Origin: Hirudinaria manillensis
Taxonomy: Eukaryota; Annelida; Clitellata; Hirudinida; Hirudinidae
Assembly (NCBI GenBank): GCA_034509925.1
Contig: CM067526.1
Coordinates: 910,001 to 974,000, forward strand
Direction: 5' to 3'
DNA: 64,000 nucleotides
Position 1 is the stretch's first letter. Every line of letters begins with the position of its first letter. Shown here one piece after another: positions 5,527-63,343 of the stretch. A program made the position numbers and the translations under genes. A model generated the notes under the pieces. The model made no database searches. It was given only the letters and a program-made list of their open reading frames with translations, and was not told the DNA's origin.

Positions 5527-5796
5527 ACAATATAATATAATATAATATAATATAATATAATATAATATAATATAATATAATATAATATAATATAATATAA
5601 TATAATATAATATGATATAATATAATATAATATAATATAATATAATATAATATAATATAATATAATATAATATAATATAATATAATATAATATAATATAA
5701 TATAATATAATATAATATAATATAATATAATATAATATAATATAATATAATATAATATAATATAATATAATATAATATAATATAATATAATATAAT
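5527..5796. repeat. Long (TATAA)n pentanucleotide microsatellite
   Basis: About 270 bp of near-perfect TATAA/ATAAT pentamers with a single TATGATATAA interruption near 5611-5620. The minus-strand open frame across it (repeating YYIIL) is an artefact of the repeat. Confidence 0.97.
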
Positions 5797-6810: not shown

Positions 6811-7200
6811 TCCTAACCCTAATCCTAAAACTAATCCTAACCCTAACACTAACCCTAACCCTAACCCTAATCCTAACCCTAACACTAACCCTAACCCTAA
6901 CACTAACACTAACCCTAACCCTAATCCTAAATCTAACGCTAACACTAACCCTAACCCTAATCCTAACAGTAACCTTTTAGTGATGAACTAACCCTAAATC
7001 CCAAACCTAACTTAATCATAAACCTAAAGCTAACCGTAAACCTAAACCTAACCCCTAACCTAACCCTAACCCTAACACTAAACCTAAATCTAACCCTAAC
7101 CCTAACACTAACCCTAACCCTAACCTTAAACCTAATCCTAACCCTAACGTTAACACTAACCCTAATATGAACCCAAACTCTAACCCTTAACCCTCAACCT
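6811..7200 (-). repeat. Interstitial telomeric-like tract, degenerate (CCCTAA)n
   Basis: About 390 bp of CCCTAA hexamers (TTAGGG on the minus strand) mixed with variants such as TCCTAA, CACTAA and CCTAAA. The degeneracy argues for an old internal tract rather than a chromosome end. TTAGGG is the common animal telomere repeat. Confidence 0.93.
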
Positions 7201-17623: not shown

Positions 17624-18230
17624 TTCAATTGAACTAAATCAAACCTAGACTCGAATTAACAAGAGAGCAGTTCAAGACACCCGCAACCTGACGGAACACA
17701 CCAAGCAGAGCTTGTTATGCAGATGAAGGGCTTCCGTGTCAAAAACACTAAAGAAGATATAGGCAGCCTGCCTGACACATTTACGTCGTAGCGATGCTAA
17801 GATATTAATTTCTTTACCAAAATTTGATAAATTAAATTATTTAAAATTATTGATGCATTAAAAATTATCAATTAATTTTAATTTTGTGAAAAGATACATA
17901 CGACCACGGAACATTTTTATTGCATAAAAATTGTTTTTCAACTTTGTTGCAGCAAATAAAAATGCCATTAAAATATTACAAATAAACGGCAGCTATTAAA
18001 TTTTATGCTTTAAACAGAAACATGTTTCGTAAAGCAATTCGATGTTTGATAGAAAAACCAAAAGTGGATTTCGAGCCGAGGCTGTCTGGGATGTCAGTTT
18101 ATCAACGGCGTTCGTTGGCTTGATCGTGCTTGACGTCGGCGTGTGGTTTCTGGTTAGCACTGGAATGGGTTTCAACTTTTAGTCAAAGTGTTTGAAATAA
18201 ATGGAACGCTGCAACAAAGAATTTGCAAAG
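17624..18230. other. Region between the 14-3-3 start and the TSSK-like stop
   Basis: It contains the promoter side of 14-3-3 and the 3' flank of the kinase, both minus strand. A minus-strand AATAAA (TTTATT on plus) near 17917 could serve the kinase transcript. No TATA box is evident upstream of 14-3-3, and no other gene is seen. Confidence 0.4.
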
Positions 18231-19869: not shown

Positions 19870-20892
19870 GAGCCATGAATGTATTACGCTGCTCAGAAAC
19901 AACCCTGCAGCTTATTGGTCGATTTTGGAGAAAATCAAACTTATATATAAAAAAAAAAAATAGAATTGACGTGGAATTTAAAGCCCTTTCTTTGAGCTTA
20001 TGATTTATTGAGATTTCGTCTTCTCGATTTGACTCTACGATGTAACTTTAAAACTGCAAAAGATATCTTTCCCTTCTCTTATCCTTTCTCTCGGCTAGCC
20101 ACAAAGTTCACGGTCATTTTGCCCCCATATAATAAACATTGGAGCGCGAAAAAAATGCAGGCGAATGATTGAAAATTTCCAAAAGCTTCGATTATTTTAC
20201 TATGTTTTCTTTTCGAGTCTGTTTCGCTATGATTTTTATTGATGTTTCTTCTTTCAATACAACAACGTCATAATAACACGATCGGCCACGAGATAGCAAT
20301 TGGTAATCCCAGTTAAAGTTATTAATCCCAGTTAATAAAGGCATTTTTAACATTTAATTTTCATTTTTCAAGAAATCCTCATATTTTTTTCATACGAATC
20401 TCATAAAAAACAAAGAGATTTTCTTCCATGTGTTCTTGACCAACGTAACTTGTGGGAGGGATTGCTGGGTCTTTGTGAATATTTCCTATAAATATTTTGC
20501 AAGATTTCGTAAATAATATTCGGATATTTAGCAAAAACGTCTCTTTTGTAAAGCCATCTCACTTTAAATCTTAATGTAAATCATTAATTATCCTATTTGA
20601 CGTAAGTCATAACTGTAAATGATCATTGTAACATGATTCTCTCCCGAGGATTCTCAAAAGTACAATTTTAAACAATTTAAAGGATAATCATTTTAAAAAT
20701 GTTTCCAGAAAGCCGGAGCGATGGAGATCCATATTTTCCATCGTCGGGGATGGATCTCAAAAAGATTGACTCCGATTGCTCCACAAATGGAATATCTTTT
20801 CGAACGTGCTCCGCTCCGTTCAGAACGTTTCGAGTTTTTACACATTTCAAATCGAAATCAATTTACTTGTCAAATGTTCTTTTTATTATATA

Positions 20893-23960: not shown

Positions 23961-24100
23961 TCATCGTCGTCGTCATCATCATTATCGCTTATTGTTCTTA
24001 TTTTTATCGTTAATATCGAACCGCTGTTTGCTTCTTGGCGTCCTCAAAAAGTCGTTATTGAATCCTTGGCAGAACTTCGTAGACGAAGTGCACTGAGGCA

Positions 24101-24375
24101 CAGGGACATCCGAACGGTCAGAGGAAGGTACAGACAGGGACATCCGGACGGTCAGAGGAAGGTACAGACAGGGACATCCGGACGGTCAGAGGAAGGTACA
24201 GACAGGGACATATCCGGACGGTCAGAGGAAGGTACAGACAGGGACATCCGGACTGTCAGAGGAAGGTACAGACAGGGACATCCGGACGGTCAGAGGAAGG
24301 TACAGACAGGGACATCCGGACTGTCAGAGGAAGGTACAGACAGGGACATCCGGACGGTCAGAGGAAGGTACAGAC
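24101..24375. repeat. 34-bp minisatellite, eight copies
   Basis: The unit GGGACATCCGGACGGTCAGA plus GGAAGGTACAGACA repeats with 34-bp period from 24103. The fourth copy has a 2-bp AT insertion (GGGACATATCCGG). Some copies read GACTGTCAG instead of GACGGTCAG. It is open in all frames, so the 124-codon frame over it is not evidence of a gene. Confidence 0.93.
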
Positions 24376-42898: not shown

Positions 42899-43565
42899 GG
42901 ATGTACCGAACATCTGAGGAATAGTTTTGAAAACTCATGCGAATAATCGAATTAAAAAAAATTATGATATTGTCACAAAATGACACTGATTTATAATGGT
43001 TATCAAATGTTTAAGGTGACCGAGATCTGTATAATACTTTAGTGATTCAAAAGATGTCGGTTCTTTGACACGGTGAAGATGAAAACATGAGTAGAATTCT
43101 TGCTGAGACTGATGAACGTTGTAAAACACCCAATTGTCCTAGTTGAGCTTACAAACTCACATCATTTTGACTTTTTTTGCAGGATTCTTAAAAAAAAAAA
43201 CTTATAATAATTTTTATATATCTTCTAGGAACTTGTCGGGGGGCAATCATCTGAAGATCTCTAACAGAATGCTCGCGCAAGAGTTTCAATCAATATTACA
43301 TTAACTTGTAGGTTCTCGATTTCGAAAAAAATAACATCAAATTTGACGCTGGGAAATTAACATCAGGTTTTTTGATCTGTTTGTGCAGTTCTTAAAAATA
43401 AATCTTTTGCAGGCAGGTCTTTTATTGGAGGCATCCACTAACCCTTAATAAATTTGTAAAAATAATAAAATTTGATTATTTATCTTTCAATGTTGAAGTC
43501 CAAACCACTCAATCAATGTAATTGGTCAAAAAAGCCATCGAAATAAATAAAATAATATTTAAAAC

Positions 43566-46500
43566 ATGTCTGTAGACGAAAGTAAAGTAATAGAGACTGG
43601 TAAATTTTTTTTGTTTAAATTTCTATTATATTACCATTCACTGATACATTAACAATAATCTTAAAATATTTAAAAAATTACTCAGTTTTTTTTATATTTA
43701 TTATTTATTTATATATTCAGAAATGTTAGAAGTATTAGAGAATTTAAAAAATGAGGCTTATGAGAATGAAAAGGTTGAATCTAATTAAATAAATATTTTA
43801 TTCATAATTTCATACATAATTTTACAATTGGAACAATCTTTAACAGCTCTCGGAAATTAGCTTCAATCGCTTTATGAACATCTCAAAGAAATTGAGGTTA
43901 GAAAAATTATATAGTATTATATAAAAACGTTGATATGATAATTTTCATTAATATTATAAATTAATTAATATTATTATTAATATTATAAATTAATTAATAT
44001 AATAATAATTATAATAATAATTAATATTATAATAATATGATATTATATTATGATATTATAATTTTTATTATTATTATTATATAATTATAATATGATTTAA
44101 CTATTGTACCGTCATTTAAGAGTTCAAAATAGCTAATAATAATAATATTATTAATAATACATTTAATAAACTTAAAAGAGTTGATCTCTAATAATTCGTA
44201 TATTGTTTCAGCAACTTCTTACCAAAACTACCCAAGGATTCGGATATCTTCGCTATTGATGATCTTTTGTATCCGACAAATGACGTCACTGGGTCAAACG
44301 AAGCTGGTTAGATTTAATCTTTTTATAAACTCTATGGAATGCTATATCTATATATCTGAACAAATTGAATTATTTTTGAAATCTCAGATGTTAGTTCCGA
44401 AGAAAAGAACGTTGCTTTTTGTGACCAGTGTATTGAAGAATACAAGGCGATTTATGAGCTTTTAGTCAGCATCTTGAAACTTTCTACATTAGCATAAATT
44501 AATGGCATCTTGGTTAACGAAATGAATTATAAAGCTACATGCTTAATTAAGAATTTTTTTTACTTAGGAACAGAGTGATTGGAAAACCAATCGTCTATTG
44601 GATGAGACATACCTCCAGACTATATTCGTAAAGAAACCCGACTCTATTGTTAAATACTACTCTGGCCATATTGGGTAAAAATAATTTTTAATTACTAATT
44701 TATATACACAAATATAATTAATATTTCCTTTAATAATAGTTTTGCAACCTACCTAACCTGGAGAAAAACAACATGGAATGTTTGTTTTGCAATCAAAATA
44801 TTCAGGATCACCATTGAAGAAGATTGCGATTATGTACTGAAAAAAATAGAAGAAAATCAAGCAAGTATGACTTTAAATTATATTTTGTCTAAAGGTTTTG
44901 ATTAATTACAACCTATATTTTAATATTTCAGTATCTTATTTATACCTATGGATATCGAAACTGCAGCAAATTCCACAAGCTAAAAGTATTCAACAAAAAA
45001 GGATCTCTGATTGGTTGAGGCACCAATGTAGGAAAAATATAAATTAATTAATAGAAATTTTACAAAAGGGAATATTAATGTTAATATTATGACTAACCAT
45101 TATTTCATCAGCCACTGTTATCGTAAATATCGTTGAATCTAAGCCATTCAAGTTTGAAGAAATACTCCAGGATTATTTAGACGTCTATCAACCAGAGGTA
45201 TGGAAAGCCGATTTTAAATAACATGATAATGTTGCGTTATTTTAGCATTATTTAGCTAATGTCATAATTTTTATATTCGCCAGCAATACGACTTAAGATA
45301 CTCAAACAGGATGATTTACTTCCTAACAGACCGTGATTCCTTCATTTGTGACCACCTCCATCATTTCTTCACGTCTGCAAAAAGTGACCAAGAGAGACTC
45401 GACCGATTGAAGAATTTTCTCCTAGGAGTGTCTTGCGAAGTAACATATATTTAACCATTAATCATTTAAATTAGATTATAAAATACTATCGAACTATTAT
45501 AATAATAATTATTATTATTATAAATTTGTTATGATTAATAATAAATAAATCTAACTGGTTTAGATAATTAAATGTATTTGGGACTGGGAGTAAATGGCTA
45601 ATTTACCTCATGTTTACACGATTTATCTTGTTTTTCCAGTTTTTGACGGAAGATTCGATGCTAGAAGATATCCAATATCCCAATGATACGGAATATGTCA
45701 CAAATCAGATTGGTGATATTTTGTCTTTCCAGTTTTCTAAATATTTCAAAAAATTTACCAAGGTATACTTATTTGTAAAACTAATATGAGAAATTAATAA
45801 ATATCACCAACCTTACAATATATCTCATTTCAGAAATATTTCTTGTACACGGATGATGAACTAAGAAAAATGGAAAGGACCTTAGGATACGATACGATTA
45901 AACCTTATCTTGAAGATGCCGATGTTCAAGTTGTGAAATTCAATTTGAATGATGAGCCTACCGACAATTCAGCAGAGGACGATGACGAAACTGATTATAC
46001 CATTGAACAATTCATCTTCTATGATGAATTAATGAAAAAGCTTGAGGTACTGAGTGCCATGCACGCTGCATGCATGATGTGCCAAAGAATACTCCAGGTT
46101 AGTTTTACATAGAAAATAGGTTTTTTGCCAGAAGATAATGAATGTCTTTATTTTCAGACCAAAGGTCATTCCATTGGTTGCGATACCTGTCATTTCAGAA
46201 GCGTTAATTCCCCCATTTGGGAATACATCGAAGATGCATTTGAGAATCTTAATACGAAACGTCGCTCCATTCCTTGGATTATGGAGATGCTGATGAAGAA
46301 TTGGTGAGATTAAATATTATTAGATAAAGAGAGTTTCGCCCGACGGCATGTATTAATCACTCACAAAATGAGATTTTGCAGGTTTTATGTATTATTTAAC
46401 TGAATTTTTCAAATGTGTGGTTATTTTTTCAGTCCTTTCCTGTTTCTACCGAAGCGCCTCGAACATGTGGCCGATGATTTCGTCAGGATGCTGAAAGGTG

Positions 46501-46677
46501 AAGAAGTCGACGAAGTATGCATGTTTAAATTTGTTAAAATTAACCATTATTCATGACTTTCGTTTGATAAATTTTCGATTCAAACATAAATGAATATCAT
46601 TTCAATAACTTAATCTGTTTTAATATTTATTTTTACAGTTTGCCAAAGAAAGATTATATTACATCATTTATAGTTAA
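43566..46677 (+). CDS. Array gene A: uncharacterised ~510-residue protein, 15 exons
   Basis: Exons: 43566-43599, 43721-43773, 43847-43896, 44212-44306, 44388-44464, 44568-44674, 44740-44864, 44932-45027, 45112-45197, 45284-45439, 45640-45762, 45834-46097, 46158-46303, 46433-46514, 46639-46677. They sum to 1533 bp, 510 residues plus stop, with every phase consistent. The protein starts MSVDESKV, has no signal peptide or membrane segment, and is rich in charged, helical-looking stretches. An acidic run (DNSAEDDDETD) sits in exon 12. Three CxxC pairs are present (FCDQC in exon 5, CMMC in exon 12, CDTCH in exon 13), possibly metal-binding. I recognise no family. The exon 5 donor is weak (GTCAGC); without it the frame would run to a stop 11 codons later. 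An AATAAA lies at 46738-46743. Reading-frame conservation across four copies supports a real gene. Confidence 0.8.
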
Positions 46678-46810
46678 CCGACAGAAATTTTCAAAACTTT
46701 TTGATCGAGCTTTGAGCGAATTCAGACGAAAATTTAAAATAAAATTAAATTATACTGCAATCGTAAATATTGTGAATATAAGAAGTAATTTGTCAAAAAA
46801 CATACGTTTT

Positions 46811-47142
46811 AGTCTAAATGGACATTAAATCGTACTGGTTCTCAGAATGCAAAGGAAATGAACTCCACTATCAATTAATAAATCTCGTACTACTAGGATG
46901 CTCTGCCTTGAACCTTAGCCTCAGAATCTCCCCACAGGAAGCTCTGGGTCACCATTTCTCGATAATAGAGCTGGTTTTGGTCATCTGAACGACAATACTA
47001 AACGCATGATTGATAGCCTGAATCTGAAACATCCTGTTGCCTGAACATTTCAATATTTATTATATAAAATATTTATATAACAATATTCTTGACAATTTTA
47101 CATTTCACGAGTATTGCGTGAGCAATTTTGACTATAAATAAA
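46811..47142 (+). pseudogene. Kinase 3' fragment in unit A
   Basis: From about 46811 to the TGA at 47042-47044 the sequence aligns with the last ~70 codons of the intact kinase at 59731-60747, and continues through its 3' UTR to an AATAAA at 47137-47142. A 1-nt insertion (CCTGAGCCTCAG versus CCTGAGCTCAG) breaks the frame in all four units. A further deletion at CACCATTTC is seen in A and D. Confidence 0.85.
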
Positions 47143-47530
47143 TACGATTAAATAGATAATGTCGTATGATATATCAACGATTGGTTATTAACTGGTTGAG
47201 GTGAACGAAGTCTCTTAGTGATTCAAGAGTTGTTGGTACATTGACGTGGTGAAGAAGAAACCGCGAGCAGAATTCTTGCCGAGACCTTTGAGCATTTCAA
47301 AAAGACTAATTTGAGGCCAGCAAATTGTTTTGAGTTATTTTGCAGTTCATCAAAAAATAAATCTTTTGCTGGCAGGTTTTTTATTTGAGGCATTCACTAA
47401 CCGATAATAAATTTGTAAAAATAATAAAATTCGATTATTTATCTTTGAATGTTGAAGTAAAAACCACTCCGTGAATGAAATCATTTAAAAACAAACGCCG
47501 AAATTTAAATATTAGCATAATATTCAAATC

Positions 47531-50493
47531 ATGTCTGTAAAAGAAAGTGAAGTGACAGAGACTGGTAAAATTCTTTTAATATTTCAAATGTAATACCAAT
47601 CAGTAATATAGTAACAATAAAAATGTTAAATTTAGTTCAAAATTTCTTAGTTTTATTTTATATATTCAGAAATTCAAATATTGGAAAATTTGACAAAAGA
47701 GGCTTGTCAGCATGATAAGGTTGAGTCTAAATAAATATTTTCGTAAATAAGTTTATTCGTATTTTCACATATAATTTTATAATTGGAATCACTTTTAACA
47801 GCTGTCAGAAAATAACTTCAATCAATTCATGAACATCTCAAAGAAATTGAGGTTGGAAAAAATATATTGTGTTATATAAAACAATGTTACTAATAACAAT
47901 ATAAAAATATAATAATGTTTACTATTATTTTCATCAACTTATGATAGCATTATTGTGCAATTATTTAAACATTTAAGGTATATAACAGAGGTGATCTCTA
48001 ATAATTCGTATATTCGTATATTGTTTCAGCAACTTCTTACCTAAACTACCCGAGGATTCGGATATCTTCGCTATTGATGATCTTTTGTATCCGACTGATG
48101 ACGTCACTGGGTCAAACGAACCTGGTTAGATTTAATCTTTTTATAAACTCTATGGAATGCTATATCTATAGATCTGAACAAATTGCATTATTTTTGAAAT
48201 TCCAGATGTTAGCTCGGAAGAAAAGGTCCTTGTTTTTAGTAACCAGTACATTAAAAAGTACAAGGAAATTTATGAATATACTGTCAGTATATTTAAAGAA
48301 GTATCTTGTTAATACATTGACATAATTTAATGCCATCTAGGCTAATGAAATGATTGATAAAGCTAGATGTAACCAGTTAATTTGTTACTTATGCACAGTG
48401 TGATTGGAAAACCAACCGTTTATTGGATGAAACATACCTCCAGACCATGCTCATACCAGAATTTGTTACCGATTTCAAGGATTATATCTGGTAAGATTAA
48501 ATTGTATTAACCGATTTATATCTTTACAATTCCTTATTATTTCATTTATTGTTAGCCATGCCGATTACCGAAACTGGAGAAGAAACATAAGGAACTGTTG
48601 TTTCGCCGTCAAAATATTCAGGATCGCCCTTGATGAAGACTGCGACACTGTTTTGGAAGATATGGAAGAGGAAGAAACAAGTATGACATTACAACATATT
48701 TTGTCTAAATATTTTGAATGATTCCACATTACATTTTATTATTTCTGTAGGTTCTTTATATTTATGGATATCGAAACTGCAGCAAATTCCACAAGCTAAA
48801 AGTATTCAACAAAAAAGGATCTCTGATTGGTTGAGGCACCAATGTAGGAAAAATATAAATTAATTAATAGAAATGTTACAAAAGGGTATATTAATGTTAA
48901 TATTATGACCTACCACTATTTCATCAGCCACTGTTATCGTAAATATCGTTGAATCTAAGCCATTCAAGTTTGAAGAAGTGCTCCAGAATTATTTAGACGT
49001 CTATCGACCAGAGGTATGGAAAGCCTATCTCAAATCAATATCAATACTAATTTTGCTTTATTTTAGTATTTATTAGTCAACGTTATATGAATTAGCTAAT
49101 TATTATTATATTTTTTGAACTTTAACAAAATTCCAGCAATTCGACATAAGATATACGAACAGGATGACATACCTCTTTACAGACCGCGATTCCTTTGTTT
49201 GTGATCACCTTCATCATTTCTTCATGTCTGCAAAAAATGAAGAGGAGAGACTCGAACGATTGAAGAATTTTCTAATAGGACTCTGCAGCCAAGTAATGTA
49301 TTATTAATAATTTATAAAATTTTATGAAAAACCATCGAATTATTATTGTTATCTTAAAAATGTATTATAAATAATAATGAAATCTAATTGGCTGAGATCA
49401 TTAAAATTAATTGGAACTTAGATTAATAAGATAGCTTCACTCACGTTTCCATGTCTTTTCTATTATCCCAGTTTTTGTCGGAAGATGACGTTCTAGAAAA
49501 TGTCCAATATCCCGTCACGACGAAAGATGCCATAGATTTACCCCTCCATGAAATCATGAATTTCCAATATTTTACATTTTTTAAAAAATATATCAAGGTA
49601 TAGACATTTGTATACATAGTCTGGGAGGAGAAATTACTAAATGTCACCAACCTGATAATAAATTTTATTACAGAGATATTTCTTGTACACGGATGATGAA
49701 CTAAGAAAAATGGAAAGAACATTAAGATACGATACGATCAAACCTTATCTCGAAGATGCCGATGTTCAAGTTGTGAAATTCAATCTGAATGATGAGCCTA
49801 CAGATAATGCAGCAGAGGACGATGATGAAACTGATTATACCATTGAAAAATTCATCTTCTATGATGAATTAATGAAAAAGCTTGAAGTACTGAGTGCCAT
49901 ACACGCTGCATTCATGAAGTGCCAAAAACTCCTCCAGGTTAGTTTTACATAGAAAATAAGTTTTTTGCCAGAAAATAATGAATATCTGTATTTTCAGACC
50001 AAAGGTCATTCCATTGGTTGCGACACATATTATTTCAGAAGACTTAGTTCCCCCATTTGGGAATACATCGAAGATACATTTAAGAATCTTAACACGAAAC
50101 GTCGCACCATTCCTTGGATTATGGAGATCCTGATGAAGAATTGGTGAGATTAAATATTATTAGATAAAGAGAGTTTCGCCCGACGGCATGTGTTAATCAC
50201 TCACAAAATGAGATTTTGCAGGTTTTATGTATCATTTAACTGGATTTTTCAAATGTGTGGTTATTTTTTCAGTCCTTTCCTGTTTCTACCGAAGCGACTC
50301 GAACATGTGGCCGATGATTTGGTCAGGATGCTGAAAGGTGAAGAAGTCGACGAAGTATGCATGTTTAAATTTGTTAAAATTAACCATTATTCATGGCTTT
50401 GATAAATTTTCGATTCAAACATAACTTAATCTGTTTTAATATTTATTTTTACAGTTTGCCAAAGAAAGATTATATTATGCCATTTATAGTTAA
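47531..50493 (+). CDS. Array gene B: paralogue of gene A, 15 exons
   Basis: It has the same 15-exon layout. First exon 47531-47564 (MSVKESEVTET), exon 2 47670-47719, last exon 50455-50493 (FAKERLYYAIYS then TAA). Phases are consistent throughout, predicted about 510 residues. Exon 5 has a normal donor (AAAGAA/GTATCT) that units A and D lack. Exons 10 and 11 differ strongly from A (IGLCSQ; DDVLENVQYPVTTKDA), while exons 12-14 are close. The CxxC pairs of A are lost: FCDQC reads FSNQY, CMMC reads FMKC, CDTC reads CDTY. I do not recognise the family. It sits between units A and C, followed by its own kinase-tail fragment. Confidence 0.78.
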
Positions 50494-50620
50494 CCGACAG
50501 AAATTTTCAAAACTTTTTGATCGAGCTTTAAGCGAATTTAGACGAAAATTTAAAATAAAATAAAATTAAACAGCAATCGTAAATATTGTGAATATAAGAA
50601 GTAATATGTCAAAAACATAA

Positions 50621-50860
50621 GTTTTAGTCTAAATGGACATTAAATCGTACTGGTTCTCAGAATGCAAAGGAAATGAACTCCACTATCAATTAATAAATCT
50701 CTTCCTGCTAGGATGCTCTGCCTCGAACCTGAGCCTCAGAATAAACCCATAGGACGCTCTGGGTCATCCATTTCTCGATAATAGAGCTGGATTTGGTCCG
50801 CTGAACGACAATACTAAACGCATGATCGATAGCCTGAATCTGAAACAACCTGTTGCCTGA
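50621..50860 (+). pseudogene. Kinase 3' fragment in unit B
   Basis: It aligns with the kinase C-terminus and still reads HPFLDNRAGFG then NDNTKRMIDSLNL and PVA before TGA at 50858-50860. It carries the same CCTGAGCCTCAG frame-breaking insertion as the other units. The kinase 3' UTR-like sequence follows. Confidence 0.85.
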
Positions 50861-51345
50861 ACATTTCAATATTTATTATATAAAATATTTATATAACAAT
50901 ATTCTTGACAATTTTACATTTCACGAGTATTGCGTGAGCAATTTTAACTATAAATAAATACGATTAAATAGATAATGTCGTATGATATATCAACGATTGG
51001 TTATTAACTGGTTGAGGTGAACGAAGTCTCTTAGTGATTCAAGAGATGTTGGTACATTGACGTGGTGAAGAAGAAACCGCGAGCAGAATTCTTGCCGAGA
51101 CCTTTGAGCATTTCAAAAACACTAATTTGAGGCCAGCAAATTGTTTTGAGTTATTTTGCAGTTCATAAAATATAAATCTTTTGCTGGCAGGTTTTTTATT
51201 TGAGGCATTCACTAACTCTTAATAAATTTGTAAAAATAATAAAATTTGATTATTTATCTTTGAATGTTGAAGTAAAAACCACTCCGTGAATGAAATCATT
51301 TAAAAACAAACGCCGAAATTTAAATATTAGCATAATATTCAAATC

Positions 51346-54317
51346 ATGTCTGTAAAAGAAAGTGAAGTGACAGAGACTGGTAAAATTATTTTAATATTTC
51401 AATTGTAATACCAATCAGTAATATATTAACAATAAAAATATTAAATTTAGTTCAAAATTTCTTAGTTTTATTTTATATATTCAGAAATGCAAATATTGGA
51501 AAATTGGAAAAAAGAGGCTCGTCAGCATGATAAGGTTGAGTCTAAATAAATATTTTCGTAAATAATTTTATTCCTAATTTCACATATAATTTTATAATTG
51601 GAATCAATTTTAACAGCTGTCAGAAAATAACTTCAATCAATTCATGAACATCTCAAAGAAATTGAGGTTGGAAAAAATATATTGTGTTATATAAAATAAT
51701 GTTACTAACAATAGTATAAAAATATAATAATGTTTACTATTATTTTCATCAACTTATGATAGCATTATTGTGCAATTATTTAAACATTTAATGTACACAA
51801 CAGAGGTGATCTCTAATAATTCGTATATTCGTATATTGTTTCAGCAACTTCTTACCTAAACTACCCAAGGATTCGGATATCTTCGCTATTGATGATCTTT
51901 TGTATCCGACTGATGACGTCACTGGGTCAAACGAACCTGGTTAGATTTAATCTTTTCATAAACTCGATGTAATGCAATTTATATATCTGAACAAATTCCA
52001 TTATTTTTGAAATTCCAGATGTTAGCTCGGAAGAAAAGGTCCTTGTTTTTAGTAACCAGTACATTAAAAAGTACAAGAAAATTTATGAATATACTGTCAG
52101 TATCTTTAAAGAAGTATCTTGTGAATACATTGACATAATTTAATGCCATCTAGGCTAATGAAATGAATGATAAAGCTAGATGTAACCAGTTAATTTGTTA
52201 CTTATGCACAGTGTGATTGGAAAACCAACCGTTTATTGGATGAAACATACCTCCAGACCATGCTCATACCAGAATTTGTTACCGATTTCGTGGAATATAT
52301 CTGGTAAGATTAAATTTTATTAACCGATTTATATCTTTACAACTCCTTATTATTTCATTTATTGTTAGCCATGCCGCTTACCGAAACTGGAGAAGAAACA
52401 TAAGGAACTGTTGTTTCGCCGTCAAAATATTCAGGATCGCCCTTGATGAAGACTGCGACACTGTTTTGGAAAATATGGCAGAGTTAGAAACAAGTATGAC
52501 ATTACATCATAATTTGTTTAAATATTTTGAATGATTCCACATTACATTTTATTATTTCAGTAGGTTTTTTATATTTATGGATATCGAAACTGCAGCAAAT
52601 TCCACAAGCTAAAAGTATTCAACAAAAAAGGATCTCTGATTGGTTGAGGCACCAATGTAGGAAAAATATAAATTAATTAATAGAAATGTTACAAAAGGGT
52701 ATATTAATGTTAATATTATGACCTACCACTATTTCATCAGCCACTGTTATCGTAAATATCGTTGAATCTAAGCCATTCAAGTTTGAAGAAGAGCTCCAGA
52801 ATTATTTAGACGTCTATCAACCAGAGGTATGGAAAGCCTATCTCAAATCAAATACTAATTTTGCTTTATTTTAGTATTTATTAGTCAACGTCACATGAAT
52901 TAGCTAATTATTATTATATTTTTTGAACTTTAACAAAATTCCAGCAATTCGACATAAGATATACGAACAGGATGACATACCTCTTTACAGACCGCGATTC
53001 CTTTGTTTGTGATCACCTTCATCATTTCTTCATGTCTGCAAAAAATGAAGAGGAGAGACTCGAACGATTGAAGAATTTTCTAATAGGACTGTGCTGCCAA
53101 GTAATGTATTATTAATAATTTATAAAATTTTATGAAAAACCATCGAATTATTATTGTTATCTTAAAAATGTATTATAAATAATAATGAAATCTAATTGGC
53201 TGAGATCATTAAAATTAATTGGAACTTAGATTAATAAGATAGCTTCACTCATGTTGCCATGTTTTTTCTATTATCCCAGTTTTTGTCGGAAGATGACGTT
53301 CTAGAAAATGTCCAATATCCCGTCACGACGAAAGATGCCATAGATTTACCCCTCCTTGGAATCATGAATTTCCAATATTTTGCATTTTTCAAAAAATTTA
53401 CCAAGGTATACATATTTGTAAAACTAATATGAGAAATTAATAAATATCACCAACCTTACAATATATCTCATTTCAGAAATATTTCTTGTACACGGATGAT
53501 GAACTAAGAAAAATGGAAAGGACCTTAGGATACGATACGATTAAACCTTATCTGGAAGATGCCGATGTTCAAGTTGTGAAATTCAATCTGAATGATGAGC
53601 CTACCGACAATTCAGCAGAGAACGATGACGAAACTGATTATACCATTGAAAAATTCATCTTCTATGATGAATTAATGAAAAAGCTTGAAGTACTGAGTGC
53701 CATGCACGCTGCATGCATGAAGTGCCAAAGACTCCTCCAGGTTAGTTTTACATAGAAAATAAGTTTTTTGCCAGAAAATAATGAATATCTGTATTTTCAG
53801 ACCAAAGGTCATTCCATTGGTTGCGACACATATTATTTCAGACTTGGATCCCCCATTTGGGAATACATTATAGATACATTTAAGAATCTTAATACGAAAC
53901 GTCGCGCTATTCCTTGGATTATGGAGATGCTGATGAAGAATTGGTGAGATTAAATATTATTAGATAAAGAGAGTTTCGCCCGACGGCATGTATTAATCAC
54001 TCACAAAATGAGATTTTGCAGGTTTTATGTATTATTTAACTGGATTTTTCAAATGTTTGGTTATTTTTTCAGTCCTTTCCTGTTTCTACCGAAGCGACTC
54101 GAATATGTGGCCGATGATTTGGTCAGGATGCTGAAAGGTGAAGAAGTCGACGAAGTATGCATGTTTAAATTTGTTAAAATTAACCATTATTCACGACTTT
54201 CGTTTGATAAATTTTCGATTCAAACATAACTGAATATCATTTCAATAACTTAATCTGTTTTAATATTTATTTTTACAGGTTGCCAAAGAAAGATTATATT
54301 ATGTCATTTATAGTTAA
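51346..54317 (+). CDS. Array gene C: paralogue, B-type with an A/D-type segment
   Basis: It has the same exon layout, start 51346 (MSVKESEVTET) and stop at 54315-54317 (VAKERLYYVIYS). Exons 1-10 and most of exon 11 match gene B closely. From the end of exon 11 (AAAAAATTTACCAAG) through intron 11 and into exon 12 the sequence becomes the A/D type, as though converted. Exon 13 has an in-frame 3-bp deletion (FRLGSPIWEY). CxxC status: FSNQY in exon 5, CMKC kept in exon 12, CDTY in exon 13. Phases remain open throughout. Family unknown. Confidence 0.78.
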
Positions 54318-54442
54318 CCAAGAGATTTTTTGAAAACTCTTTGATCGAGCTTGGAGCGAATTCAGATGAAAATTTAAAATAAAATTAAATTAAACAGCAA
54401 TCGTAAATATTGTGAATCCAGGAGGAATTTGTCAAAAACATA

Positions 54443-54683
54443 CGTTTTAGTCTAAATGGACATTAAATCGTACTGGTTCTCAGAATGCAAAGGAAATGAA
54501 CTCCACTATCAATTAATAAATCTCGTACTACTAGGATGCTCTGCCTCGAACCTGAGCCTCAGAATAAACCCATAGGACGCTCTGGGTCATCCATTTCTCG
54601 ATAATATTGCTGGATTTGGTCCGCTGAACGACAATACTAAACGCATGATTGATAGCCTGAATCTGAAACAACCTCTTGCCTGA
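54443..54683 (+). pseudogene. Kinase 3' fragment in unit C
   Basis: Same content as in unit B, ending ...LNLKQPLA then TGA at 54681-54683. It has the shared CCTGAGCCTCAG insertion and ATATTGC in place of ATAGAGC. Confidence 0.85.
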
Positions 54684-55196
54684 ACATTTCAATATTTATT
54701 ATATAAAATATTTATTTAATAATGTTCTTGACAATTTATATTTCACGAGTATTGCGTGAGCAATTTTAACTATAAATAAATACGTTTAAATAGATAATGT
54801 GGTATGATATATCAACGATTGGCTATCAAATGGTTGAGGTGACCGAAATCTGCATGACGATTCCTAGTGATTCAAGAGATGTTGGTACATTGACGTGGTT
54901 AAGAAACCGCGAGCAGAATTCTTGCCGAGACCTTCGAACATTTCAAAAACGACAATTTAACTAACTTGAGGCCAGCAAATTCACATCGGTTTTGAGTTAT
55001 TTTGCAGTTCTTCAAAAAATAAATCTTTTGCTGGCAGGTTTTTTATTTGAGGCATCCATCAACTCTTAATAAATTTGTAAAAATAATAAAATTTGATTAT
55101 TTATCTTTGAATGTTGAAGTCCAAACCACTCAATCAATGTAATTGGTCAAAAAAGCCATCGAAATAAATAAAATAATATTTAAAACATGTTTGTAG

Positions 55197-58100
55197 ACGA
55201 AAGTAAAGTAATAGAGACTGGTAAAATTTTTTTGTTTAAATTTCTATTATATTACCATTCACTGATACATTAACAATAATCTTAAAAAATAGATAAAAAA
55301 ATTACTTATTTTTTTTATATTTATTATTTATTTATTTATTATTTATATATTCAGAAATGTTAGAAGTATTAGAGAATTTAAAAAATGAGGCTTATGAGAA
55401 TGAAAAGGTTGCATCTAATTAAATAAATATTTTATTCATAATTTCATACATAATTTTACAATTGGAACAATCTTTAACAGCTCTCGGAAATTAGCTTCAA
55501 TCGCTTTATGAACATCTCAAAGAAATTGAGGTTAGAAAAATTATATAGTATTATGTAAAAACGTTGATATAATAATTTTCATTAATATTATAAATTAATT
55601 AATATAATAATAATTATAATAATAATTAATATTATTATGATATTATATTATGATATTATAATTATTATTATTATTATTATTATATAATTATAATATGATT
55701 TAACTATTGTACCATCATTTAAGAGTTCAAAATAGCTAATAATAATAATATTATTAATAATGCATTTAATAGACTTAAAAGAGTTGATCTCTAATAATTC
55801 GTATATTGTTTCAGCAACTTCTTACCAAAACTACCCAAGGATTCGGATATCTTCGCTATTGATGATCTTTTGTATCCGACAAATGACGTCACTGGGTCAA
55901 ACGAAGCTGGTTAGATTTAATCTTTTTATAAACTCTATGGAATGCTATATCTATATATCTGAACAAATTGCATTATTTTTGAAATTCCAGATGTTAGTTC
56001 CGAAGAAAAGAACGTTGCTTTTTGTGACCAGTGTATTGAAAAATACAAGGCGATTTATAAGCTTTTAGTCAGCATCTTGAAACTTTCTACATTAGCATAA
56101 ATTAATGGCATCTTGGTTAACGAAATGAATTATAAAGCTACATGCTTAATTAAGAATGTTTTTTACTTAGGAACAGAGTGATTGGAAAACCAATCGTCTA
56201 TTGGATGAGACATACCTCCAGACTATATTCGTAAAGAAATCCGACGCTATTGTTAAATACTACTCTGGCCATATTGGGTAAAAATAATTTTTAATTACTA
56301 ATTTATATACTCAAATATAACTAATATTTCCTTTAATAATAGTTTTGCAAACTACCTAACTTGGAGAAAAACAACATGGAATGTTTGTTTTGCAATCAAA
56401 ATATTCAGGATCACCATTGAAGAAGATTGCGATTATGTACTGAAAAAAATAGAAGAAAATCAAGCAAGTATGACTTTAAATTATATTTTGTCTAAAGGTT
56501 TTGATTGTTTACAACCTATATATTAATATTTCAGTATCTTATTTATACCTATGGATATCGAAACTGCAGCAAATTCCACAAGCTAAAAGTATTCAACAAA
56601 AAAGGATCTCTGATTGGTTGAGGCACCAATGTAGGAAAAATATAAATTTATTAATTGAAATGTTACGAAACGGTATATTAATGTTAATATTATGACTAAC
56701 CATTATTTCATCAGCCACTGTTATCGTAAATATCGTTGAATCTAAGCCATTCAAGTTTGAAGAAATACTCCAGGATTATTTAGACGTCTATCAACCAGAG
56801 GTATGGAAAGCCGATTTTAAATAACACGCTAATGTTGCGTTATTTTAGCATTATTTAGCTAATGTCATAATTTTTATATTCGCCAGCAATACGACTTAAG
56901 ATACTCAAACAGGATGATTTACTTCCTAACAGACCGTGATTCCTTCATTTGTGACCACCTCCATCATTTCTTCACGTCTGCAAAAAGTGACCAAGAGAGA
57001 CTCGACCGATTGAAGAATTTTCTCTTAGGAGTGTCTTGCGAAGTAACATATATTTAACCAATAATCATTTAAATTAGATTATAAAATACTATCGAACTAT
57101 TAATAATTATTATTATAAATTTGTTATGATTAATAATAAATAAATCTAACTGGTTTAGATAATTAAATGTATTTGGGACTGGGAGTAAATGGCTAATTTA
57201 CCTCATGTTTACACGTTTTATCTTGTTTTTCCAGTTTTTGACGGAAGATTCGATGCTAGAAGATATCCAATATCCCAATTATACCGAATATGTCACAAAT
57301 CAGATTGGTGATATTTTGTCTTTCCAGTTTTCTAAATATTTCAAAAAATTTACCAAGGTATACATATTTGTAAAACTAATATGAGAAATTAATAAATATC
57401 ACCAACCTTACAATATATCTCATTTCAGAAATATTTCTTGTACACGGATGATGAACTAAGAAAAATGGAAAGGACCTTAGGATACGATACGATTAAACCT
57501 TATCTTGAAGATGCCGATGTTCAAGTTGTGAAATTCAATCTGAATGATGAGCCTACCGACAATTCAGCAGAGGACGATGACGAAATTGATTATACCATTG
57601 AACAATTCATCTTCTATGATGAATTAATGAAAAAGCTTGAGGTACTGAGTGCCATGCACGCTGCATGCATGATGTGCCAAAGACTACTCCAGGTTAGTTT
57701 TACATAGAAAATAGGTTTTTTGCCAGAAGATAATGAATGTCTTTATTTTCAGACCAAAGGTCATTCCATTGGTTGCGATACCTGTCATTTCAGAAGCGTT
57801 AATTCCCCCATTTGGGAATACATCGAAGATGCATTTGAGAATCTTAATACGAAACGTCGCTCCATTCCTTGGATTATGAAGATCCTGATGAAGAATTGGT
57901 GAGATTAAATATTATTAGATAAAGAGAGTTTCGCCCGACGGCATGTATTAATCACTCACAAAATGAGATTTTGCAGGTTTTATGTATTATTTAACTGGAT
58001 TTTTCAAATGTGTGGTTATTTTTTCAGTCCTTTCCTGTTTCTACCGAAGCGCCTCGAACATGTGGCCGATGATTTCGTCAGGATGCTGAAAGGTGAAGAA

Positions 58101-58272
58101 GTCGACGAAGTATGCATGTTTAAATTTGTTAAAATTAACCATTATTCATGACTTTCGTTTGATAAATTTTCGATTCAAACATAAATGAATATCATTTCAA
58201 AAACTTAATCTGTTTTAATATTTATTTTTACAGTTTGCCAAAGAAAGATTATATTACATCATTTATAGTTAA
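55197..58272 (+). CDS. Array gene D: A-type paralogue, 15 exons
   Basis: Near-identical to gene A along its whole length, introns included. Start 55197 (MFVDESKVIET), stop 58270-58272 (FAKERLYYIIYS). It keeps all three CxxC pairs (FCDQC, CMMC, CDTCH). Like A it lacks the B/C exon 5 donor and would need the weak GTCAGC. Differences include FVDE for SVDE, KYKAIYKLL in exon 5 and DDDEIDY for DDDETDY in exon 12. Open phases in every exon suggest it is functional or very recently duplicated. Family unknown. Confidence 0.8.
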
Positions 58273-58401
58273 CCGACAGAAATTTTCAAAACTTTTTGAT
58301 CGAGCTTTGAGCGAATTCAGACGAAAATTTAAAATAAAATTATATTAAACAGCAATCGTAAATATTGTGAATATAAGAAGTAATTTGTCAAAAAACATAC
58401 G

Positions 58402-58639
58402 TTTTAGTCTAAATGGACATTAAATCGTACTGGTTCTCAGAATGCAAAGGAAATGAACTCCACTATCAATTAATAAATCTCGTACTACTAGGATGCTCTG
58501 CCTCGAACCTGAGCCTCAGAATCTCCCCACAGGAAGCTCTGGGTCACCATTTCTCGATAATAGAGCTGGATTTGGTCCGCTGAACGACAATACTAAACGC
58601 ATGATTGAGAGCCCGAATCTGAAACAACCTGTTGCCTGA
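58402..58639 (+). pseudogene. Kinase 3' fragment in unit D
   Basis: Same as in unit A (CACCATTTC deletion and CCTGAGCCTCAG insertion), ending ...LKQPVA then TGA at 58637-58639, followed by kinase 3' UTR-like sequence. Confidence 0.85.
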
Positions 58640-59133
58640 ACATTTCTATATTTATTATATAAAATATTTATATAACAATATTCTTGACAATTTCACATTT
58701 CACGAGTATTGCGTGAGCAATTTTAACTATAAATAAATACGATTAAATAGATAATGTCGTATGATATATCAACGATTGGCTATCAAATGGTTGATGTGAC
58801 CGAAATCTGCATGACGATTCCTAGTGATTCAAGAGATGTTGGTACATTGACGTGGTTAAGAAACCGCGAGCAGAATTATTGCCGAGACCTTTGAGAATTT
58901 CAAAAACACTAATTTGAGGCCAGCAAATTGTTTTGAGTTATTTTGCAGTTCATAAAAAATAAATCTTTTGCTGGCAGGTTTTTTATTTGAGGCATCCATC
59001 AACTCTTAATAAATTTGTAAAAATAATAAAATTTGATTATTTATCTTTGAATGTTGAAGTCCAAACCACTTAGTGAATGAAATCAGTGAAAAACAAACGC
59101 CGAAATTAAGAAAATAATTATAATATTTAAATC

Positions 59134-59300
59134 ATGTCTGTAGAAGAATGCGAAGTAATAGAGACTGGTAAAACTATATTATGCCATTTATAGTTGACTG
59201 ACAGAGCTTGTCTTAAATATTTGATCGAGCTTTGAGCGAATTCACACAAAAATTTAAAATAAAATTTTGTTGAATAACACTCGTAACATTTACATGTTGC
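59134..59300 (+). pseudogene. Truncated array unit E: exon 1 joined to the terminal exon
   Basis: Exon 1 (ATGTCTGTAGAAGAATGCGA..., 59134-59167) and the first bases of its intron are followed, near 59170-59176, directly by terminal-exon sequence (TATATTATGCCATTTATAG). Exons 2-14 are absent. The terminal stop TAA has become TGA in a diverged context. The following AAAATTTAAAATAAAATT matches the other units, then similarity fades. It lies about 430 bp upstream of the intact kinase gene. Confidence 0.85.
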
Positions 59301-59730
59301 AATGCAGTCATTCCACGATACTGTTTTCATCAAACCTCTGAGTCATGGTCTATGCGAGCCTCTCTTAAGTCTATTAAACCTCATAAACTTGATTTCTGGA
59401 TTTCAACATTAGATTTTTTTTTTGTAGATACGGCTTTTTGATTATGAAATATCTAGATCTTATATAATAGCTTACGCTATTGTTGTTTCGGGTAGGGGCA
59501 ACGCGAATTAAAAGTTAATTTATAATTATTAATTAATTTTTCGTAAATTGCGGGAATTTTCAGAATCTTTTATTGCAGCTCGGTAACTTTAAATATCATA
59601 TCTAGTCGTTCAAAGTGCAATCCAAATTATATAGAAGTGAAAGTATTATAAAACAAACGATTGAAATATTATTGCCTTTTGACCAAAGTAAGGATTCTTG
59701 ATTTTTGTTCATAAATTCCAGGTTCCAGAG

Positions 59731-60747
59731 ATGGAAAGAAAAAATAGCGCCGATTCGCCTTTGGGTAACAAGTACAAAGTCTTGGAAAAAATTGGAAATG
59801 GGTCTTATGGTCTCGTCCTGAGAGCTCTGGACTTGGAGGAGAACAAGCAGGTAGCCGTAAAACTGGCTATGAATAAGGACGGGAACTACGAGAGAAATGT
59901 CGACGAGGCTCAGATACTCGAGAAGATCAGCAAGATCGACTCATGTCTCAGCCAGTACGTCATCAAGGTCAAGACCTGGTTTACAGTCAGGGATTCCGTA
60001 GTCACCGTCATGGAGCTCAAGTCGGGCTCCCTCAGGCAACGAATCTTCAAAAACAGGATCAGACATTATTCCAAGCTATCGAAGTATGCTCTGCAGATGG
60101 TTGAATTCCTTTACTTCATGTCTCAGCTGGACATCATTCATGGCGATCTCAAGCCTGAAAATATCCTTCTCGATGAAGCTGATGATGAACTCGTGTTTGC
60201 AGACTTTGGCCTTTCCTATGCTCCTTTCATAAAAAATAAGCCTAAGCTCATCCAGACCTTGGACTATAGAGCGCCAGAGGTATTTCTAGGTTATGATTAT
60301 ACGGCTTCTGCCGACACCTGGAGCATAGGCTGCATCTTGCTGGAATGCCTGACAGGTACCTGCCCTTTTTACGGCGAAGATGCGGACGACGTGATGGAGG
60401 CAATATTGACCAAAATAGGATCTCCTAGGCAAGAATACATTGAACGGGCACCAAACAGATCAAGTTATTTCACTCGAATAGATGGTCTGTGGGTTCTAAA
60501 AGGATATAGAGAGCCCATAAAACCTACCGGCTTTCAGGAAGTAAGGAGCGAAAAGAGCGAACATTACGATCACTTTATAGATCTTGTTCAGAAGATACTC
60601 TGCTTCGAACCTGAGCTCAGAATCTCTCCACAGGAAGCTTTGGATCATCCATTTCTCAGGAAGGCCATGAGGGCTGGATTTGGCCGGCTGAACGAAAATA
60701 CTAAATACCAGTTGGAGAGGTTGTCTCTAGAACTACCCGTAGCCTGA
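59731..60747 (+). CDS. Intronless DYRK/CMGC-like protein kinase (copy 1)
   Basis: 338 residues from the ATG at 59731. The frame is open further upstream from a TTG, but ATG-ERKNSADS follows an acceptor-like TTCCAG and is the natural start. Kinase domain about 15-315: GNGSYGLV glycine loop 22-29, VAVK Lys44, helix-C Glu about 59, IIHGDLKPENILL (HGD 137-139 in place of HRD), FADFGLS (DFG 158-160), YRAPEVFLGYDYTASADTWSIGCILLECLTG, and a late PELRISPQEALDHPFL. The HxDLKPENILL motif and GSP/insert region point to the CMGC group near DYRK. The YxY activation tyrosines of DYRKs are not present (LIQTLDY). Catalytic residues are intact, so it may be active. AATAAA at 60840-60845. TATAAAAC at 59647-59654 may be its TATA box. 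Its 3' end is the parent sequence of the fragments in units A-D. Confidence 0.9.
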   Translation: MERKNSADSPLGNKYKVLEKIGNGSYGLVLRALDLEENKQVAVKLAMNKDGNYERNVDEAQILEKISKIDSCLSQYVIKVKTWFTVRDSVVTVMELKSGSLRQRIFKNRIRHYSKLSKYALQMVEFLYFMSQLDIIHGDLKPENILLDEADDELVFADFGLSYAPFIKNKPKLIQTLDYRAPEVFLGYDYTASADTWSIGCILLECLTGTCPFYGEDADDVMEAILTKIGSPRQEYIERAPNRSSYFTRIDGLWVLKGYREPIKPTGFQEVRSEKSEHYDHFIDLVQKILCFEPELRISPQEALDHPFLRKAMRAGFGRLNENTKYQLERLSLELPVA

Positions 60748-61524
60748 AGATTTTATTGTTTATTATGTAAAATATTTATTTAGTAATGCTCTGGATATTT
60801 GTACACTTTACAAGTATTGAGTGGACCGTTTTAAGTAGAAATAAATATTAACATGAAAAATGCGGGAACATGCTTTGGATGCTTTGGATTTTTCGTTTCA
60901 ACTTTTGCTTCAATCTTACTTTAGTTTTTTTTTTTCATGTTTTTAGAATTTAATAAATGATTGCAATAACGCATTTGGTGTTTCAAATTTGTCTTTTTGA
61001 TATATTGGAATATTTTGAATTAATTGAGTAATATAACTATTTTAATAGCTTTTGGTTTTCAAATGCCTATATATTTTGTAATATTATTTTAAATTATAAA
61101 TAATATCGTTGATCAAAAGGCTGAAACTTTCTACAATACTGATGATGATTATAATGCCGACCGTGATGGAATTATTTGCCATTGGATATTGTCAGCTGAT
61201 GATGATATTTTTCAGTGTAGGTTCTTCACTATACCGGCTGCTTATCACCAACGAAGCACTTGATTCGTATCAAAGTCAACAGTTGTCATGGAAACGTTGG
61301 GTGAACCAAAACATCGGCATGCAGAGATTGTTGATTAATTTTTAATAATCGACTCCTTTTTCCTAAATTATATTCAGAATCTTTTATTATCGCGAGGAGC
61401 CTCGAATTAGCTTATCTAGGCGTTCAAAATCCAATTCAAGTCAAATTATTGTAAAACAAACGATTGAAACACTCTTGCCAATCAACCCTATCCAAGGTAA
61501 AATACTCCTGACTTTTGATCGCAA
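60748..61524. other. Spacer between kinase copies
   Basis: The last ~150 bp before copy 2 (from TTCAGAATCTTTTATT near 61375) is similar to the region before copy 1 (from about 59561), including GTAAAACAAACGATTGAAA versus ATAAAACAAACGATTGAAA. The 5' flank was therefore duplicated with the gene. No further gene is seen. Confidence 0.6.
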
Positions 61525-62478
61525 ATGAATGCCGATATAGAAAAACGTAATGGCATCGATTTCATAATAGCCGGCAAGTACAAAGTTTTGGAAATAATTG
61601 GAAATGGGTCTTATGGTCTCGTCCTGCGAGCTCTGGACTTGGATGAGAACAAGCAAGTAGCCGTCAAACTGGCTATGAACAAAGGCGGTACCTATAAGAA
61701 AAACATCGTCGAAGCTCAGATACTCGAAAAGATCAACAAGGTCGAATCCCGTCTCAGTAGGTACGTAATCAAGTTAAAGATCTGGTTCATCGTCAAGGAT
61801 TGCGTCATCATCGTCATGGAGCTCAAGTCGGGCTCACTTAGGCAACGAATCTCAAAAAACAGGATCAAACATTATTCCAAGCTATCGAAGTATGCTCTGA
61901 ACATGGTTGAATTTCTTTACTTCATGTCTCAGCTGGACATCATTCATGGCGATCTCAAGCCTGAAAATATCCTTCTCGATGAAGCTGATGATGAACTCGT
62001 GTTTGCAGACTTTGGCCTCTCCTATGCTCCTTTCGTAGAAAATAAGCCCAGGCTCATCCAGACCTTATATTATAGGGCGCCAGAGGTATTTCTAGGTTAT
62101 GATTATACGGCTTCTGCCGACATCTGGAGCATAGGCTGCATCTTGCTGGAATGCCTGACAGGTAACTGCCCTTTTTACGGCGAAAATGAGAACGACGTGA
62201 TGGAAGCCATTTTTACCAAAATAGGATCTCCTAAGCAAGAATACATTGAACGAGCACCAAACAGATCGCGTTACTTCGTTCGAAAAGCTGGTCTGTGGGT
62301 TCTGAACGGATATAGAGAGCCCATAAAACCTATTGGTTTTCAGTTAGTAAACCGGGTTTGCAATGATAAGTATGATCAATTTATAGATCTTGTTCAGAAG
62401 ATGCTCTGCTTCGAACCTGAGCTCAGAATCTCCCCCGAGGAAGCTCTGAATCATCCATTTCTCAAAAATAAAAAATAA
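61525..62478 (+). CDS. Intronless DYRK/CMGC-like protein kinase (copy 2)
   Basis: 317 residues (MNADIEKRNGID...), closely related to copy 1 and almost identical at nucleotide level across the catalytic loop (SQLDIIHGDLKPENILLDE). Catalytic elements are present: GNGSYGLV, VAVK, HGDLKPEN, FADFGLS, YYRAPEVFLGYDYTASADIWSIGC. It ends HPFLKNKK, about 20 residues shorter than copy 1, whose tail GFGRLNENTK...LPVA is missing. The activation segment reads LIQTLYY instead of LIQTLDY. No introns. The product should be an active Ser/Thr (or dual-specificity) kinase if expressed; its substrate is unknown. Shared 5' flank with copy 1 argues for DNA-level duplication. Confidence 0.9.
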   Translation: MNADIEKRNGIDFIIAGKYKVLEIIGNGSYGLVLRALDLDENKQVAVKLAMNKGGTYKKNIVEAQILEKINKVESRLSRYVIKLKIWFIVKDCVIIVMELKSGSLRQRISKNRIKHYSKLSKYALNMVEFLYFMSQLDIIHGDLKPENILLDEADDELVFADFGLSYAPFVENKPRLIQTLYYRAPEVFLGYDYTASADIWSIGCILLECLTGNCPFYGENENDVMEAIFTKIGSPKQEYIERAPNRSRYFVRKAGLWVLNGYREPIKPIGFQLVNRVCNDKYDQFIDLVQKMLCFEPELRISPEEALNHPFLKNKK

Positions 62479-62816: not shown

Positions 62817-63343
62817 GTTCAATTTGTCCGACTTCGGCCTCTGCTATGCTTGCTGTGCTGCCTCAAAATTGTCCCTTATTCAGACCCTCTCCTATAGGGC
62901 ACCAGAGGTCATCGTCGGTTGAGACTACGATTATTCGGTCGACATGTGCAGCGTCGACTATATTTTATTGGAGTGCGTAAGGAGGAATTTATTCTTCGAC
63001 AGTGGAGGTGACGAACTGGGGCAACTGCAACTGATTGTCCATATATTCGCCCCTCCCCCTGCCTCGAGACTTAATAATCAATTCGACAAGAGACGCCTTC
63101 TATCACTTCCACGAATAGATGAAATAGTGGATCCTGGATGATTCGAAGTGGCCGAAAGTGCCGATCGGTCTGAAAACTTATTTTACCTCTGTACACGATA
63201 GGAAAGAAACTAGTCTGATGGACTTGGTTGACCTTGTGGAGCGCATGATGAGTGTCGAATCTGTCCGTAGGATCAAGCCGCACGAGTGCTATGACTTTCC
63301 TTTTCTGGATTATTTCAACCACTCCTCTTTAAACGAGCAGTGA
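62817..63343 (+). pseudogene. Decayed third kinase copy
   Basis: Kinase resemblance begins mid-domain just after an acceptor-like ACAAAAACAG: LSDFGLCYACC, then SLIQTLSYRAPEVIVG, followed by an in-frame TGA, then DYDYSVDMCSVDYILLEC. After frame changes it resumes as LVDLVERMMSVESVRRIKPH...DFPFLDYF to TGA at 63341-63343. The N-lobe and catalytic loop are absent. It is more diverged from copies 1 and 2 than they are from each other, so it is an older relative. I do not reconstruct a product. Confidence 0.75.

Follow-up and report, generated by a model that had tools for sequence, protein, structure and literature searches.

Large intracellular protein families that lie in tandem arrays, combine conserved docking with a variable part and turn over fast are exemplified by the F-box and MATH-BTB families of nematodes. 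PMC10087013 describes seven or eight copies of the globin GLB3, arranged in tandem, in two leeches and one copy in Whitmania. Leech genomics has so far centred on secreted anticoagulants. The locus analysed here lies in the medicinal leech Hirudinaria manillensis, within a stretch of 64,000 nt (C1:910001-974000, forward strand), referred to as a whole as the window. Positions 42997-58776 of this window hold four protein-coding paralogues from a large multigene family that is rich in introns, is under modest purifying selection, has been duplicated both in tandem and between chromosomes, and is homogenised in blocks; its product may be a cytosolic or nuclear adaptor or scaffold, and to the reading as a whole, role included, we give about an even chance. 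No description of this 15-exon family was found in the literature listings searched or in selected passages of PMC10087013, PMC10671345 and PMC11897028.

Four intact 15-exon genes and their relatives in the genome

A blastn self-comparison of the window delimits four direct units, each with one 15-exon gene and all on the forward strand: unit A (42997..47181, the gene with a 3' kinase-tail remnant), unit B (47182..50997), unit C (50998..54819) and unit D (54820..58776), followed from 58777 by a truncated fifth. The exon model was read from copy A, with an exon-by-exon protein search of the leech's own genome as a further basis, and carried over to the other three copies by means of a MAFFT alignment. 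Gene A extends from ATG to stop over 43566..46677 (508 residues; exons 43566-43599, 43721-43773, 43847-43896, 44212-44306, 44388-44464, 44574-44674, 44740-44864, 44932-45027, 45112-45197, 45284-45439, 45640-45762, 45834-46097, 46158-46303, 46433-46514 and 46639-46677). Gene B, in which the exon 8 acceptor is shifted by 3 nt, occupies 47531..50493 (504 residues; exons 47531-47564, 47670-47719, 47802-47851, 48030-48124, 48206-48282, 48399-48490, 48556-48680, 48751-48843, 48928-49013, 49137-49292, 49472-49597, 49674-49937, 49998-50143, 50273-50354 and 50455-50493). Gene C is found at 51346..54317 (504 residues; exons 51346-51379, 51485-51534, 51617-51666, 51845-51939, 52019-52095, 52212-52303, 52369-52493, 52561-52656, 52741-52826, 52945-53100, 53280-53405, 53477-53740, 53801-53943, 54073-54154 and 54279-54317), and gene D at 55187..58272 (508 residues; exons 55187-55220, 55355-55407, 55481-55530, 55815-55909, 55991-56067, 56177-56277, 56343-56467, 56535-56630, 56715-56800, 56887-57042, 57235-57357, 57429-57692, 57753-57898, 58028-58109 and 58234-58272). 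The fifth copy (58777..59286, forward strand, delimited by blastn of 58777-59300 against the window) retains the 5' region and exon 1 with the opening bases of intron 1, fused to the end of exon 15 and the 3' flank, while exons 2-14 are gone.

All 56 introns (14 in each of the four copies) are bounded by GT-AG, and the intron phases 1,0,2,1,0,2,1,1,0,0,0,0,2,0 are identical in the four genes. The exons sum, stop included, to 1527, 1515, 1515 and 1527 nt in A, B, C and D, and their coding frame contains no premature stop in any copy, against 28-48 in the other two spliced frames. Every exon indel is a multiple of three (3/3 between A and B, 4/4 between A and C, 1/1 between B and C, none between A and D); for A-B intron indels this holds in 8 of 23. 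When protein B alone was used as the query of a spliced aligner, 15 of 15 exons of D were recovered, the alignment finishing on the codon just before the stop. The intron 5 donor is weak (GTCAGC/GTCAGT), and gene A encodes 508 or 510 residues, since the acceptors of exons 6 and 8 each have an alternative within a few bases; predicted lengths may thus shift by one or two residues. The proteins are 74.6% identical between A and B, 97.8% between A and D and 92.8% between B and C. The original prediction of four direct units, each with a 15-exon gene open and in phase, encoding about 510 residues and changing exon size only in multiples of three, is thus borne out.

A search of the leech's own genome (148,429,096 bases in 23 contigs) with protein A gave 116 matching rows, from which at least 71 loci over nine contigs were counted by eye; these counts are lower bounds, as 84 of 290 candidates were scored. 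At least 67 of the loci lie outside the window, with 30 on C6, 19 on C4, 12 on C8, two on C10 and one each on C2, C9, C11 and C13. Most stand in arrays on C4, C6 and C8, many of them regularly spaced, with intervals of about 4.8-5.5 kb on C8 and C4. Neither the 30 kb that follow the window nor the 7.5 kb readable of the 10 kb upstream of it held a further copy. The family had been proposed to be expanded, a word that understates its size.

Twelve intron-bearing paralogue loci were fetched, of which 10 gave models reaching at least from residue 42 to residue 501 of protein A, to which they are about 30-39% identical. Nine of these 10 are free of stops and frameshifts, L042 having one frameshift; the remaining two are partial, L039 (C4:7159867) with one frameshift and L048 covering residues 337-508 only. 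The spliced models scored 416-562 for the 10 and 323-562 across all 12. Controls scored lower: 44-81 when protein A was shuffled, 58-84 at three unrelated loci and 48-71 on the opposite strands of the 12 loci. All 10 near full-length models share introns at protein A positions 78 (phase 1), 211 (phase 1), 469 (phase 2) and 496 (phase 0), and those at 46 and at 420 (phase 0) are present in nine of 10 each. The parts matching exons 5-6 and exon 11 are poorly determined, and L041 and L044 have doubtful extra exons there. Placed back on copy A, the proteins of L045, L043, L046 and L040 reproduce 26/28, 25/28, 21/28 and 26/28 boundaries exactly, and on copy B 22/26, 20/28, 16/28 and 25/26 agree, a check that is not wholly independent because those proteins were modelled with protein A as guide.

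Three further members are intronless: one of 475 residues on C9 (G000:C9:2478518-2479846) and two on C10, namely L036 (535 residues) and a second seen only as a search row. L036 and the C9 member are 23-31% identical to protein A, and these genes are likely to be old retrocopies or else a separate intronless branch. L046 (on C11) matches L047 (on C8) at 90% across the entire 5.5 kb fetched, so this inter-chromosome duplication carried more than the gene.

Purifying selection and block homogenisation

Between A and B, neutral simulations that placed 227 substitutions with the intron spectrum produced a mean of 14.1 stops and a minimum of five in 400 runs, whereas none is observed; likewise 128 residue changes are seen against 155.6 (standard deviation, SD, 6.3) in the simulation. 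By the NG86 method, the A-B rates of nonsynonymous (dN) and synonymous (dS) change are 0.135 and 0.314, and counting gives dN/dS of 0.43 for A-B, 0.48 for A-C, 0.42 for B-D and 0.48 for C-D. A maximum-likelihood codon model of the four copies yielded an omega of 0.653, with a doubled log-likelihood difference (2dlnL) of 7.24 from omega 1 fitted with kappa on a grid. Across 458 of 596 codon columns, the four window copies together with nine paralogues (13 members, excluding L039, L042 and L048) have an omega of 0.379, with a log-likelihood of -12775.24 as compared with -12925.08 at omega 1 and the same kappa.

The copies do not diverge evenly along their length. Introns 5, 6, 7, 9, 10 and 11 differ by 22-34% between A and B and introns 4, 8, 12, 13 and 14 by only 1-7%, the 3' flank differs by 4.6%, and the exons show the same block pattern. 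In intron 11, C differs from A by 1.4%, while B and C differ by 22.5%. Sites with two-versus-two patterns group A+D and B+C 387 times and the other two ways 2 times and once. Because the low divergence covers introns as well as exons, the blocks were most likely homogenised by gene conversion, judging from these sequence patterns. A comparison of dN/dS exon by exon is therefore not readable as plain constraint, and it is with this limit that omega is given as 0.534 for exons 5-7 and 10 (2dlnL 6.72), 0.681 for exons 5-7, 10 and 11 (2dlnL 3.12, not significant) and 0.606 for the remaining exons (2dlnL 4.04).

Several results weigh against our reading and define how far it can be taken. A and D differ by 11 residue changes, where 11.5 are expected under neutrality, and 33% of runs for this pair had zero stops; for B and C the values are 36 changes, 38.1 expected and 2.75% of runs, so that these two pairs alone carry little information on coding constraint. 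Their NG86 dN/dS values, 0.65 for A-D and 0.74 for B-C, are near the drift expectation, and counting ratios for recent pairs elsewhere are similar (L037-L043 0.62, L038-L045 0.89, L046-L047 0.59 and the partial L044-L048 0.68). Exon 11 alone has an omega of 1.858, which is not significantly above 1 (2dlnL 1.39), and positive selection is thus not demonstrated. Introns and exons diverge nearly alike between A and B (17.1% and 15.0%), which makes the protein constraint weak overall. The paralogue models were guided by protein A with an aligner that penalises stops, which favours open and similar models, and the argument for an adaptor is one of analogy. Purifying selection on the protein is real but modest, and recent duplicates are only loosely constrained. 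The earlier argument that frames kept open through many residue changes indicate selection holds for the A/D versus B/C comparison and the wider family and fails for the recent pairs; the dN/dS check proposed with it, between copies and by exon group, gave values below 1 overall, exon 11 being the non-significant exception.

What the product may be

The predicted product has a mass of 60 kDa and an isoelectric point of 4.8-5.0. Its highest 19-residue hydropathy is about 1.0 in A and B, with no stretch suggesting a membrane segment, and its N-terminus, judged by eye, is unlike a signal peptide, in agreement with what had been claimed. Helical periodicity is found in 303 of 494 windows, compared with 149 (SD 30, maximum 256) in 100 column shuffles. 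The paralogues resemble A most in exons 14 (57% identity), 8 (45%), 12 (44%) and 4 (42%), where motifs such as IDDLLY, KRISxWLRxQ, DYTIEKFIFYD, CPFLxLPK and LKGExVDE occur, and least, at 18%, in exons 7 and 11. From this composition and conservation we infer a mostly alpha-helical, acidic adaptor or scaffold of the cytosol or nucleus with a constant and a variable part. The conserved stretches in exons 4, 8, 12 and 14 would bind a constant partner or maintain the fold, and the fast-changing stretches in exons 5-7 and 11 would determine the binding target of each copy. Such a family may evolve by birth and death, like intracellular recognition families in defence or reproductive conflict; four intact tandem copies, truncated or non-functional members (the fifth copy and L039) and paralogues with a shared gene structure are all present.

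In keeping with the earlier claim that the protein matches no known family, searches found nothing significant in Pfam-A, NCBIfam 20.0, PHROGs 4 or PDB sequences. The best Pfam match of protein A was the Spt4 zinc finger, below significance at E 0.12. A zinc ribbon of this type was considered and rejected: both CxxC pairs are present in A and D only, C having lost one of the four cysteines and B two, and they are not kept in the aligned paralogues. Pattern matches numbered 207 and 259 in two scans of viral contigs, and a prokaryote-genome scan gave some too, but none was confirmed as a relative; because these scans first require short conserved peptide patterns, distant relatives may be missed, and animals other than this leech lay outside the search.

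The strongest alternative, to which we assign a substantial chance somewhat short of even, is that the family is a very diverged version of a known helical-repeat fold (PCI, HEAT, MIF4G or GANP-like), that is, an amplified housekeeping adaptor. The helical periodicity fits this, as do the weak Pfam matches to CID_GANP (E 0.015) and PCI (E 0.12) in a scan of 10 members. However, each of these appeared in one of the 10 members, under the cut-off, a 10-member profile had no match with E up to 10 among PDB sequences, and a 4-member profile gave only Cif 3efy at E 0.065.

The next alternative starts from the neighbouring kinases. Each unit ends in the dead remnant of a kinase 3' end, with stops in all frames (forward strand throughout): 46867..47144 in A (72.6% identical to 60566-60847), 50682..50960 in B (73.3%), 54505..54782 in C (73.3%) and 58462..58739 in D (74.0%). 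Just downstream of the array lies K1, an intronless protein kinase of 339 residues (59728..60744, forward strand; Pfam Pkinase E 1e-47), which is a source-like relative of the remnants and stands outside the 15-exon family. It is followed by K2 (61525-62475; intact and intronless, E 7e-49), 79% identical to K1, and by a broken third kinase (62824-63307). The kinase profile matches K1 and K2 and neither protein A nor protein B, so no kinase domain was found in the 15-exon product. Related intronless kinases are found elsewhere in the genome: 26 near-identical ones head-to-tail about 1.9 kb apart at G000:C8:3218640-3267062, with 471-residue frames about 42% identical to K1, and nine more at G000:C11:8124345-8140154, eight of them on one strand, about 1.8 kb apart. 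On the minus strand of the window, two putative genes were read by eye at 14250-19911, one for a 14-3-3 protein and one for a TSSK-like kinase (the latter at about 18.2-19.9 kb). A germline or sperm family, whose testis-biased structural or regulatory proteins expanded alongside intronless kinases, a pattern like that of animals whose sperm kinases have expanded, would account for K1 and K2 adjoining the array, for the remnants inside each unit, for the long kinase arrays on C8 and C11 and for the TSSK-like gene. We consider it possible but doubtful, as neither the 13 family loci fetched from outside the window nor the 30 kb downstream gave a kinase match, which makes the kinase link local only. 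A link between kinases and the family was accordingly set aside, the in-unit tails being remnants with stops and the fetched paralogue loci having no kinase. Both this explanation and that of a diverged known fold are compatible with the adaptor reading.

A bolder version of the adaptor reading is that this is an unnamed animal family with a new fold, forming in leeches an intracellular recognition system for defence or reproductive conflict. Its docking part at the C-terminus would stay constant while the middle varies, and the copies would have diversified through tandem duplication, gene conversion and spread over nine contigs. We regard this as unlikely. An origin from a mobile element or virus, with the genes spread as cargo and now partly domesticated, would explain the dispersal over nine contigs, the three intronless members and the tandem arrays; it is very improbable given the 14 conserved introns, the likeness of L046 and L047 beyond the gene, as in segmental duplication, the unconfirmed viral-contig matches and a best PHROGs match of E 0.035, which is not significant. 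Least credible is a decaying, functionless pseudogene array, for which the mostly deleted fifth copy, the frameshifted partial L039 and recent-pair dN/dS near 0.6-0.9 could be cited, but which conflicts with no stops in four copies where 14 were expected for A-B, a family omega of 0.38 and nine of 10 near full-length paralogue models without stop or frameshift.

Other features of the window and comparison with known systems

Rfam and tRNA scans of the window gave no matches. Simple arrays occupy 1461-1824 (AAAC x 91) and 5529-5797 (AATAT x 54), a degenerate array of 64 telomere-like CCTAAC units lies inside a chromosome arm at 6812-7199, and a 34-base tandem repeat of eight copies with 96% match is found in an otherwise unannotated stretch at 24100-24375. 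In the genome as a whole, the leech-associated Pfam family Hirudin (PF00713) exceeded the cut-off once (33.9 bits, E 5.8e-6, with one stop in the matched frame), and in none of 14 control genomes.

If at least 71 loci of a medicinal leech do encode uncharacterised intracellular proteins, they represent a large blind spot. The family is also a tractable case of rapid turnover, with a firm gene structure, arrays of known coordinates and public RNA-seq data, which PMC10671345 gives for H. manillensis as SRR15881191-SRR15881251.

No F-box, BTB or MATH domain was found in any of the 10 members scanned with Pfam, and the nematode families are likened to the present one by analogy only. The likeness to GLB3 of blood-feeding leeches lies in that globin's tandem expansion, linked to lineage, within the same group of animals. 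The two differ in that GLB3 belongs to a named globin family, whereas the family described here has no name, is larger and dispersed, and is rich in introns.

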